Assembly (NCBI GenBank): GCA_015680905.1
Contig: JADFTS010000040.1
Coordinates: forward strand, 186,001 to 250,000
Direction: 5' to 3'
DNA: 64,000 nucleotides
Source: Coptis chinensis
Lineage: Eukaryota; Streptophyta; Magnoliopsida; Ranunculales; Ranunculaceae
This document shows positions 5,448-11,816 of this stretch, in pieces. The notes beneath the pieces were generated by a model. It did not search any database. It worked only from the letters and a program-made list of their open reading frames with translations, and was not told the DNA's origin. Made by a program: the position numbers and the translations under genes. How positions within the stretch are numbered: the stretch's first letter is position 1; each line of letters starts with the position of its first letter.

Positions 5448-8374
5448 TTTTCATATCCGCAATGCCTGTTGGTATATGTTGTTCCCCACTGATTTTATGT
5501 AGATGTTTTCTAGAAACGAGGAGTTTTTGTGTCAAGTTGAGAGAGTCTGAGATGATCATTCTTTTGTTTGAAGTTGTCCTACTGTTGTTGCTATGCTGTG
5601 CCTAGGAACTTTCAAAAGGCTTGTATTCTTCGGAAGCAGCAATAACAAGATATATCATGTTTTATAGTGCATTTTATTGTGGATAACAAGATTTGAATAG
5701 CAGACTAGACTATACTATACTCCAACATTGTATTGTCTCTGATTCACATCTATGATATACTGTCTTTTATCCATTGCAGCGGGTTGCTCTAATTTAGAAC
5801 AGGGGTTGTTCAATTGGACTATTTGTGTCCTGAGATTACTTTCAGCTTGTTTTGCAATGGCAATGTTAATAACTTAATATGCCACCGTACCTGGTCATAG
5901 CATTGGTTTTAGTCAACTATTGCGAGTAGCATACATGAAGCAGCGTACAGAAAAGAAGATTGTAAATTTGCTGGATCAATGAGGAAAGTATCTTTTCCAT
6001 CCATTACGAATTAGCGAATGTGGACAAAGTTGCTACACTCGCCCTTTTCTTGATTATTTATTCGGATCTTTAGGTTTTACATTACACACAATTAAATAAA
6101 ACCATCTCACTGACTTGAATTGTTTTATGTTTATAGGCAGGTCACCTCTAGCTGTTACGTAGTTAGTTAATTACAAATTGTTACACTGTTGCATAACATT
6201 TGTGATTTTCTTACAAAACAACTGTAGTTTGATTGATGTTTGTCAAATATGGTTATGTATCACTATGATGGTGAAGATCTGGATAAATGTGTTGCAGCTA
6301 ATGAAGATGATGATCGTTAGAACTTTCATGACTCATTCTTCTGAACATATGAAATATTGGCTTGAAGTTTTTCAAGCAGTCTACATGATTAATATACTTC
6401 CCTTCAGAATACTTCTGAATGTACTTGCTATCTTTCGTTGAAGCCATATACCAAACATAAACTAGAATTTAGGACAAACCCGTGTTTTCATAGGCCATGC
6501 AAAGGGTATCAGTATCAATGTCTGGACATACAAACAAGGAGAGTCTGCCGCTAGCCGCTAGTGGACCTAGGAAATTAAACATGTGCCACCATGCGAACCG
6601 TGAAAGCTAAACAAATGGAAATGGGATCTAACCACACATGTTCTCTGACTGTAGTCGGATACTCAAACTATATATTCCATGTCGTCCACAGTAACAATTC
6701 AACCACCCTCTCCTTTAAACAGATTGTTTATATGAACGACCTGATTATACTACCGAAATATCTAGCGGAATATCCAGATTCTGTTAGTTCGAAATCACGA
6801 ACTATGGCCAAGAGTTGTTTATGACTTGGGGAGTTCTAAAATGGCATAGTACTATAGGCGTATAGTACACATACATAACAAAAAGCGTTTGTTCCACTGC
6901 AAAAATGTTGTGTCATGCATATTGCTCCACATGTGTCGCTCACTGCCGCGCTCGCAGTGCATCTAAAAATTGTTTAGAGAAAGAAATGTCGATTACTGTT
7001 CAAGAATATGAAGATACAGCTGCTATTGCTGGTTTTGGATCGGGTAATTAATTAACTCGGGGTGGTACGTCTAAAAGATGCAAGAAGTTTGTTAATGCCT
7101 GGGATCTGTATTCCCTTCACCATATGTTGGCAGAACAAGTGCGTTGCCCTTCACTCATCCAACAAGGGTTGTCTCAACGTATCTCCTATCTTTTGGCCTA
7201 TATAATTTGCTCGACTTCCTCGTCGTTGCCACAGATAACTCTTGGTTTCTTATGTGGCATAGCCTTGTGGCATGACCCACGAGCTAAGGGATTGGGGATT
7301 CCAGAAAACAAAAAATGCCGTTACTTATTTCCGTTTTCACTTTCTTATTGAAACTGGTAAAAGAGATTAATAATTATGGCCAGACTTGGACAGGGGAGAG
7401 TGAACATCCGAACATCCACTCTTTTAATAGTCTGAAACAAAAGAACACGACCGTTTCTGTCAACTTGCGAAACAAACAGTTTCCATTGAATCCATTCCCA
7501 TCAAATAGGAAGTACCACTAGATGATAAAAGTATGGGAAAAAATGACTTGGGCTAGAACAAAATACGAATTACACCCAAGTACTGAAGACAGCTCCATAA
7601 AATACTCATGGGTCATCATTTTAAATCGCACAGTTTTAGGACTGGATTTAAAGCCCAACAGAATTGGAACCAGAGTTCTACCCATTTAAATGTATACTTA
7701 CTATTACAGCATATCTTGTGAATTAAAACCTGACAAAGTCACTTGTGTTCAACCCATTTAAATGCATACTTATTATTACAGCCATATCTTGTGAACTAAA
7801 ATCTGACAGAATCACTCACAAGTTCCGTACTTAGGCCGAATTTTCAGATCTCCGCTTTATAATACCATCCACATATGGTTGGATGATTTTTCCTATGGTT
7901 ACGAGGTTCAACACAGAAAACTGCATAAAAAGTATATTAAACAGAGTTAACTTGGTATTATCGGGAAAAAATAATAACTTGCTATTATTGAAAAAAAAAA
8001 GAGTTTACTTGCTCAGGAAGCACTTTTAGCATATCGCAAAAAAATTAGTATATTGTAGAAGTAACACAAAACAGCTGAGTAATTTCCAACTGTAGGCAAG
8101 GATTTCATTAGAGATAGTAAATTCAACGAAAATTAAGAAAGTCGGTATAAATTTATAATTTAAAAAAAAAAAAAAAAAAAAAAAAGGTTTAATATTGTTT
8201 ATAAATTTATAAATTAGACATAACTTTTTAAAAAAATGTGCGGATGATGTACCCATAAAACAAACAGCAAATAAAGATGTGAAACAAACGAAAAATTCAT
8301 CCAAGATAATTGTGATCTCAAATTCTAAGGCATATTTGTCTCCTTATAATGCCGAAATAGCAAAAAAATTAAAT
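5448..8374. other. Long gene-free stretch
   Basis: About 2.9 kb without a recognisable gene. It contains short open frames (for example 6178-6441 and 7124-7351) with no known motif and no coherent splice partners, and a poly-A run at about 8161-8185. A duplicated phrase around ACCCATTTAAATG recurs at about 7680 and 7754. I see no transposon ends. Confidence 0.5.
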
Positions 8375-10694
8375 TTAAGATCTAAACAACAGTAACATGG
8401 TGAACGACAAAGTCAAAAGAAATTGGTTGGTAGAAATGTCCCTTATTAAAATAAAGGATGACATAGAATCCTTACCCTCATTCTCGGTCTTAGTACTAAC
8501 CGAATAATCCGGAAGCAGTACCAGAACATCCTGCAATACTGCAGAGAAACAATCTACATACGTTAACAACGCTTTAACTTATAAAATATTTAATAAATCA
8601 TTCCTAAACCAGGAATACACTAACATTTAAGCTTATTTAAGGTTTCCATATCAATTTCAGCAGCAAATCCAAATGGCATCGCACACCAAACCATGTAGAT
8701 TTTCTCTTTTGCTTCATCTTCACTGATAAATGTCAAGAAAATAATTAACAGATTAAAAGGGAATAAATTAGTGGCTAAATAAATAAACGGACTGAAAACT
8801 CAGTGGAAACTAGGGTCCAGGGGGGGGTGATGATTTGTAAATATAACCCTAAATCAAATAAATTAAAACAATATATTGTTGTACATAGCCCAACAGTTTC
8901 TCCCACTTACCTTCCAATAACCTCGGCTAACAATCTAACACAATAACGAATACATTTACTGTAATTTGATAATACACATTCAGGTTGCTTTAGATGAACA
9001 AGCCAATGATCAGATTTGCACTCCATGTCAGGTTCAGGTTCAGACAGAAAGTGATAGCTGTAGAGATCATTATAAATGATACCATCCTGACAAAACGCAG
9101 TAAATTGAGCGACTGGTTGGACTGCAAGAGAGGAAACAAGTTCAAAATCAAAACTGATAATAGTTCCAAATTAAGAACACGAACTCGAGCAAAATACAAC
9201 AAACAAAATTAACAATAAACAATAAACGCAAAGCTGACTGACAAATGGAGGGGGGGGGATGCCCCTGTAACTCCCCACCAACCAACTGGGTTTGGGTCAC
9301 CGCAACATCAGAACAAGGGTGTGGGCAACCTAAACTCTGACCAAATCATGAGGCTCAAGGCCATGGATCCCACTAATGCCATTATAAGCTGGTAAGACGC
9401 CTAGCCCAAAGGGGTAAATGCTGCACAAACGTTTAGTCCAACGCATGTTTGGTTACGTATGAGACCTAGGTACACAAGTGATTTAATAGCTCCACTTAGT
9501 CCTTCACCGGTATGGTTATGTGCACTCCATTTGTTTTATTGTTCTTTTGGATCAATATAAAGCATTATATCGATATAATTATAAGAAATACAAAAGCACC
9601 ACCAGACTAACCTAGGCCAGTTACCAGGACCAATGTACGGTGAATGTATCACACCCCATTACACACAGCCCTAAATGAAACCATGCATACAAGACATACT
9701 AAAGAACCTCAAAGCCCATCACCAAGCTGCCCCCAGCATCATCCAGACCACCATCTTTCAACCACCAACAGCTCAACACCCTTCCTTCATATCCACCCTA
9801 TTTGTTTCTCCTTAAACATCACCATCAATCATGATCAACTCTCTCTCCCTCCCACTCCATGTGTTAAAGATTATTAGAAAATACACTTACGAAAAACGTT
9901 AGTTAGTCAGCACACTTAGTAAAATAGTAAAAGCTTACCACTGCCGTCCTTGATCCGAGCACTATAGTAGCAATCTTTCCTGATAAACTGAACTCCTCCG
10001 CATTCTATAGAGGAAAATATATACAATTAGCTTTAATTGTGAAGAAGCCATTACATACATGAGATATCGAAGTCAGCACCAACTAACCTTCAAGACATTT
10101 TTTGGTAGGCTTCATTGACCTCAGCGCCAAAACCATATGGCCACTCACACGAAACAAGGTAAATTTTCAGTCTTGCTTGTTCGCTGTTAAGAAACACAAA
10201 TAATATATAATAAGTTGGTTAAGTTAACATATTATGATGATAAAAGCAGGGTATAATAATAATAATAATAATTTTTATTACATGGGAATGCCAAGAGTTA
10301 AAGTTAATGTCCAAGCATAATAATCAAACAATTCTTGCTCTGACAAGGAGTCTAAATCAAAGCGTTTGACGCTCTCCACATAAACAAGCCAATGATTTTT
10401 ATCTCCAAGTTTAGGGGGAGCTTCTAGTGCCTCATCCATCAAAGATCCAAAATTTTTAACCTTTAGAGGATTCCAAACATAATCAGACTTGTTGAAGTGA
10501 TGGTGACCAGTGATTATGATATTATTTTTTTTAGTTTTATCAAGAGAAGAGTAAGGTGCAGCAGCAGAGTGACGAGCAAGAATGGAAGTGAGAAATGATG
10601 TTGTTGTTGATGTGGATGAAAAAACTGGACTTTTGGCGGAGAAAAGGGAGCTTCTTCGGACAGCTCTCATTGCAGCAGCCATTGCAGCAGCCAT
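8375..10694 (-). CDS. MORF-like organellar RNA-editing factor with two MORF modules (possibly decaying)
   Basis: MORF/RIP proteins bind PPR editing factors in mitochondria or plastids. Six minus-strand exons fit: 10694-10282, 10183-10088, 10004-9939, 9121-8911, 8722-8625 and 8538 to 8476 or 8375. Exon 1 starts MAAAMAAAMRAVRRSS, an Arg/Ser-rich, acid-free leader suited to mitochondrial import, and then enters module 1 (DKNHWLVYVE; EQARLKIYLVSCEWPYGFGAEV; CGGVQFIRKDCYY). Module 2 follows with the same layout (SDHWLVHLKQP; EDEAKEKIYMVWCAMPFGF; LQDVLVLLPDYSVS). Phases join across five junctions, including the exon 3-4 link between modules. Exon 2 has a run of six A where five would keep frame, so as written it stops at a TGA just after YQKMS; this is a real lesion or a sequence error. 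The C-terminus is unclear: exon 6 may splice at a GTAAG at 8475 or read on to TAA at 8375. Confidence 0.7.
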
Positions 10695-11534: not shown

Positions 11535-11816
11535 AATCCTTAGAGAGATGCTATCATCCTAGATAAAGCATCAGAGACTAGAATAAACAAATAAGGGGAG
11601 AGAGGATCTCCCTGTCTGAGGCCTCTACTAGGAGTAACAGACTCTAAAGGAGCACCATTAAGCAAAACTTTAAAAGAAACAGTAGATAAACATTGAGAGA
11701 TAAGCAATCTCCATTTTTCATTAAACCCTAATTTTTGAAAAATATTATCAATAAAGGACCATTCCACCCTATCATATGCTTTAGACATATCCATCTTCAA
11801 AGCAACAAAACCCTTT
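11535..11816 (-). mobile_element. LINE (non-LTR retrotransposon) reverse-transcriptase fragment
   Basis: A minus-strand open stretch reads GFVALKMDMSKAYDRVEW, later GLRQGDPLSPYLFILVSDAL. These are hallmarks of plant L1-type reverse transcriptase: the first Asp block (DMSKAYDRVEW) and the RQGDPLSPYLF block. Only about 95 residues survive. The YADD catalytic block, the endonuclease and a poly-A tail are absent, so this is a dead internal fragment. Confidence 0.93.

Follow-up and report, generated by a model that had tools for sequence, protein, structure and literature searches.

A single MORF domain per protein is a customary, rather than a defining, feature of the MORF family. MORF/DAL genes have been described with intron phases 2-1-1 and with exons of 98 bp and 66 bp (PMC5515838), whereas a paper on poplar gives phases 0, 1 and 2 instead (PMC6471648). 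The proteins dimerise and bind PPR editing factors (PMC5515838, PMC7132558), and the Inhibitor I9/subtilisin prodomain has been proposed as their origin (PMC5515838). Surveyed species have 6 to 11 MORF genes (PMC5515838), and 43 were reported from the polyploid Brassica napus (PMC11138011). The expectation of the original prediction for the locus studied here, one module per MORF protein, was incomplete, as two truncated modules occur in ORRM1 (PMC5515838, PMC7132558); the RIP-RIP part of ORRM1 is needed for contact with PPR proteins in yeast (PMC4402546). In the open-access literature we recognised no paper describing a gene with two full or with three MORF modules.

The gene described here lies on the minus strand of the window, by which we mean the whole 64,000-nucleotide stretch of Coptis chinensis DNA that was analysed, itself part of a 426-kb contig (C110). 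It resembles MORF/RIP/DAL genes in its PF21864 domain, its 2-1-1 phases, its transit-peptide-like N-terminus, the 98-bp second exon of module 2 and the 66-bp third exon of module 1. It differs from them in having two modules per gene instead of one, in an exon that combines the linker with the second HWLV stretch, in a short tail exon of another kind, and in the lengths of e2 (95 bp in the paralogs, 96 bp here) and e6 (63 bp). With ORRM1 it shares two tandem MORF-type modules behind an N-terminal targeting region. The ORRM1 repeats are truncated, and the modules of the window gene cover almost all of the domain. ORRM1 differs in carrying an RRM and in its linker, which is without an intron in this genome, and its two repeats cluster together, apart from the modules of the window gene. 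Two tandem MORF-type repeats are thus already known from ORRM1; for two nearly full modules, most likely of independent origin, and for a three-module relative no counterpart was recognised in the open-access literature. We are fairly confident that the window gene belongs, as a disabled member, to a two-MORF family seen in this single plant genome, that this family originated from an exon-triplet duplication separate from ORRM1, and that its intact members are probable MORF pairs.

Gene structure, domain identity and the break in module 1

The window gene consists of seven exons (10694-7844) encoding a transit-peptide-like N-terminus, two MORF domains and a short tail. GT/AG ends were found at all six introns of the model, and the phases are 2-1-1 in module 1 and likewise in module 2, so that sequence, splice ends and phases bear out the predicted two tandem MORF modules of the same three-exon layout. 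Exon 1 (10694-10282) contains the ATG and the N-terminus, whose first 50 residues include no D or E, and then opens module 1 with its HWLV part; it ends in phase 2. Module 1 continues with exon 2 (KIYLVSCEWPYGFGAE; 10183-10088, 96 bp), which has a TGA inside its 3' end, and exon 3 (CGGVQFIRKDCYYSARIKDGS; 10004-9939, 66 bp). The linker intron between the modules (9938-9122, 817 bp), missing from the intronless relatives, is in phase 1 and therefore keeps the frame from module 1 into module 2, as had been claimed for it. Exon 4 (9121-8911) supplies the linker VQPVAQFTAF..YNDLYSYHFLSEP together with the HWLV part that opens module 2; it ends in phase 2 and is followed by exon 5 (KIYMVWCAMPFGFAAEID; 8722-8625, 98 bp) and exon 6 (LQDVLVLLPDYS; 8538-8476, 63 bp). 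The earlier extent of the gene, 8375..10694, covered these six exons correctly but missed the seventh (7920-7844), which encodes the C-terminal tail (VFCVEPRNHRKNHPTICGWYYKAEI) and the stop in a frame common to the paralogs.

Just downstream of the last exon, at 7675-7816, lies a tandem duplication of about 72 bp whose units are 88-92% alike, and upstream of the gene a fragment of an RVT_1 reverse transcriptase (45.5 bits) was detected on the minus strand (11543-11791). A scan for bacterial-type promoters found nothing; such promoters have no bearing on a plant gene.

A domain search of the joined translation, with an X at the frameshift, led to two MORF stretches and 120.7 bits (Pfam), as the original prediction had it. 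Scored separately against PF21864 (MORF_dom; cut-off 27 bits), module 1 reached 51.9 bits with the X and 39.6 bits when only the part before the stop was counted; module 2 reached 73.8 bits. Of the 93 profile positions, 2-87 and 2-85 are covered, respectively. These scores are above the cut-off, and the MORF identity of both modules is not due to chance. In a PDB sequence search module 1 matched MORF2, MORF1 and MORF9 (best 3.6e-9). Module 2 matched MORF2 and MORF9 (best 2e-14), and MORF1 only at 0.079, with unrelated chains at 0.03-0.05 ranking ahead of it; the nearest solved chain is MORF2 for each module. The likeness of module 2 to Inhibitor I9 is weak (13.5 bits, below the cut-off of 21.2), and no protease domain was found by Pfam in the translations scanned.

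Exon 2 has 96 bp in the window gene and 95 bp in three paralogs, leading to the early TGA, and the frame as annotated stops after 168 residues, within this exon. As assembled, the gene can encode no more than the presequence and roughly two thirds of module 1 (Pfam 2-62 of 93), and owing to this one-base shift it gives at best a truncated product. A break of module 1 in exon 2 had been predicted and was found, but not the six-A run as its carrier: from by-eye comparison with the three paralogs, the extra base is best placed a few bases upstream of the run, with the sixth A as a substitution, and the place of the break therefore probably differs from the A-run. An assembly error, which would make the window gene a third intact copy, might be considered as the length is off by one base only and the other frames, the splice sites and the stop are in order. 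However, further differences from the paralogs occur at the same spot, indicating more than a plain homopolymer length change, and we regard such an error as unlikely in comparison to a genuinely disabled gene. Splicing around the stop was also considered and rejected: among skips of one to three of the exons e2-e6, only that of e2, e3 and e4 together keeps the frame open, and the 14 alternative pairs of e2 donor and e3 acceptor that do so on paper include none that is supported.

Intron-bearing and intronless relatives

Searching the genome (935.6 Mb) gave at least 84 matches to the module-2 protein and at least 96 to PF21864, 150 candidates having been scored for each, and 20 genome stretches were retrieved for comparison. 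Two intron-bearing paralogs, C4a (L017; C4:22.03M) and C1a (L018; C1:23.80M), can be read through all seven exons without a premature stop, encode 338 and 367 aa, and contain two PF21864 stretches each (106.5 and 115.8 bits; Pfam). A third, C1b (L019), has kept module 1 and is missing e4 and half of e5. Three more loci consist of module 2 and e7 only, and all are broken: L020 has a stop in e4, in L021 e5 is disordered, and in L022 e4 is shifted.

Seven copies, two of them in L023 and one each in L024, L032, L033, L034 and L035, have module 1 followed by module 2 with no intervening intron, and five of the seven show frame breaks. When a spliced paralog protein was used as tblastn query, the e3-e4 junction was crossed by a single alignment in five copies (both of L023, L032, L033 and L035), and two adjacent pieces around the junction were obtained for L024 and L034. 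The two open copies, both on C3, aligned with 38% identity along 244 aa and with 34% along 305 aa. As the intronless copies carry both modules fused, the spliced message of their ancestor spanned both modules. The loss of introns, taken by itself, suggests that they are retrocopies; a poly(A) run of at least 10 within 1.5 kb downstream was present at none of the six places checked.

These data bear on whether the locus might be two adjacent single-module genes, the message of module 1 ending and that of module 2 starting anew. The loci L020-L022 indicate that module 2 can stand alone, though each of them is broken in e4 or e5. On the other hand, e4 opens in phase 1 with an acceptor, one frame runs through both modules in C4a and C1a, and the junction is crossed in the fused intronless copies, which together make two separate genes hardly credible and argue for one doubled gene.

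One open frame in L023 (2157-4016, minus strand; G000 C3:9.006-9.008 Mb) is intronless, 619 aa long and contains three MORF modules (228.8 bits; Pfam), arranged as two tandem modules, a Ser/Asp/Glu-rich linker and the third module. The ORF beside it (L023:8453-9976, minus strand) encodes two modules and an acidic repeat tail. Among the matches listed (207 rows), 19 of 82 MORF-core loci have at least two cores within 3 kb, two of these having three; ORRM1 and the window gene each account for one of the 19. A piece of such a gene was also observed in a mobile element: six copies (L025-L030), 94-98% alike in their main blocks of up to 9 kb, include as much as roughly 430 bp of exon 1 from a two-module MORF gene resembling C1a, and the copy in L025 contains a tnp2-type transposase ORF (PF02992).

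Origin of the tandem and relation to ORRM1

A midpoint-rooted tree was calculated from 31 modules, among them 8 module-1 rows, 10 module-2 rows and 9 canonical rows. The modules of L021, L022 and L035, the first modules of L032 and L033, and the near-duplicates L039, L042 and L051/L052 were left out. Some rows are composite, with third parts joined by hand at the expected junctions, and the third part of ORRM1 repeat 2 was taken from the intronless copy L050; an X stands at the frameshift of the window gene and in the rows C6r_m1 and ORRM1_r1, and the module-1 end of C4r was read in one frame though C4r is shifted. The locus L050 (G000 C6:7.301 Mb) is a partial intronless copy of ORRM1, in which the second repeat (119.1 bits) is followed by sequence resembling the start of an RRM.

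In this tree the module-1 clade (support 95/81) and the module-2 clade (98/93) are joined with each other (97/95), the ORRM1 repeats pair with each other (99/98), and a grouping of the nine canonical single-module rows is unsupported (41/0). Of the constrained groupings, all chosen after the tree had been inspected, module 1 with ORRM1 repeat 1 gave p 0.019 and module 2 with repeat 2 gave p 0.007; one clade of the whole two-module family and ORRM1 (p 0.388) and one uniting the whole family, the MORF2-like row and the third modules (p 0.444) were not rejected. The genome's own ORRM1 (L037+L053) encodes two modules with no intron in the linker, and RRM exons lie downstream of them (69.1 bits). 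When its RRM was compared with the window, L017, L018 and L019, nothing convincing was detected (best E 1.8), and a downstream RRM in the window gene was rejected.

Two tandem MORF repeats in one protein are known from ORRM1, and an RRM-less ORRM1-like protein has been described from Picea (PMC5515838). One could thus imagine the window gene as a degenerate ORRM1 whose modules go back one-to-one to the truncated repeats and which has lost its RRM, and the p of 0.388 for a common clade leaves room for that. But the ORRM1 repeats group together and both one-to-one pairings fit poorly, and an ORRM1 with an intronless linker and RRM exons stands against a window gene with an 817-bp linker intron and no convincing RRM match, so that a descent of this kind appears quite improbable. 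The module-1 and module-2 clades join, with ORRM1 apart, and the tandem therefore looks like the product of an independent exon-triplet duplication. From the sequence comparisons, the most likely course is a duplication of its own, starting from some MORF relative and separate from ORRM1. The duplication of an exon triplet inside one gene, as suggested originally, is supported by the open paralogs, the fused intronless copies and the joined module clades.

According to this scheme, three MORF-encoding exons would have been duplicated inside one MORF gene and joined by a phase-1 intron, and the doubled gene would have been transcribed and spliced as a single unit. It would then have been copied many times, in intron-bearing and intronless form, with at least one copy gaining a third module. 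An intact member would be a covalently joined MORF pair, probably entering an organelle, and its two binding faces may bring together PPR editing factors, or other MORFs, within the editosome. Organelle targeting, PPR/MORF binding and a role in editing are thus putative properties of the two-module family. The window gene would have lost the pair function via the one-base shift in exon 2, with a truncated product left at best.

Constraint on the family and its possible role

Between C4a and C1a all six indels in e1-e6 are multiples of three, compared to 5 of 19 for the introns that could be aligned; the exon count excludes e7, which was taken to end at the stops. Exon indels of the window gene come in threes in 4 of 5 cases against C4a, 6 of 7 against C1a and 3 of 4 against C1b, the exception each time being e2. 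For C4a and C1b both exon indels are multiples of three, and for C1a and C1b four of six, the remaining two, 55 and 8, summing to 63. The chance of a stop-free frame was 0.005-0.017 after 143 random substitutions and 0.06-0.10 per lineage with 72. The dN/dS was 0.99 (0.68-1.55) for C4a-C1a, a value that does not point to purifying selection on these two paralogs, and 0.41 (0.26-0.68) for C3r1-C3r2, the intronless pair with open frames; three canonical MORF pairs gave 0.05, 0.09 (dS 1.58, saturated) and 0.41. Window gene and C4a are less identical in exons (88.6%) than in introns (95.6%), a contrast behind which exchange between copies or diversifying selection is possible. Taken together, these values may reflect relaxed constraint, diversifying selection or sequence exchange among the copies.

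The dN/dS near one, the exons differing more than the introns, the sister without e4 and half of e5, and the three loci without module 1, themselves broken, would all fit intron-bearing copies that are recent non-functional duplicates, including the two open ones, whose frames would then be leftovers. We consider this a possible but rather doubtful explanation, since the absence of any stop over 143 substitutions is improbable, exon indels come in threes while most intron indels do not, and the open intronless pair is constrained. A family with functional intact members, of which the window gene is a disabled one, remains our preferred reading.

Still more tentatively, this plant lineage may have evolved a multiplying and fast-changing family of multi-MORF proteins, with single-chain pairs and one open intronless triple. 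These would provide ready-made scaffolds for organelle RNA editing, or take part in a conflict between nucleus and organelle, their reading frames being preserved while amino acids change at about the synonymous rate. MORFs work by pairing and by gripping PPR proteins, and a natural single-chain MORF pair independent of ORRM1 would allow testing which pairings the editosome needs. The three-module intronless protein and the 19 multi-core loci would show that the MORF family can expand and recombine its domain.
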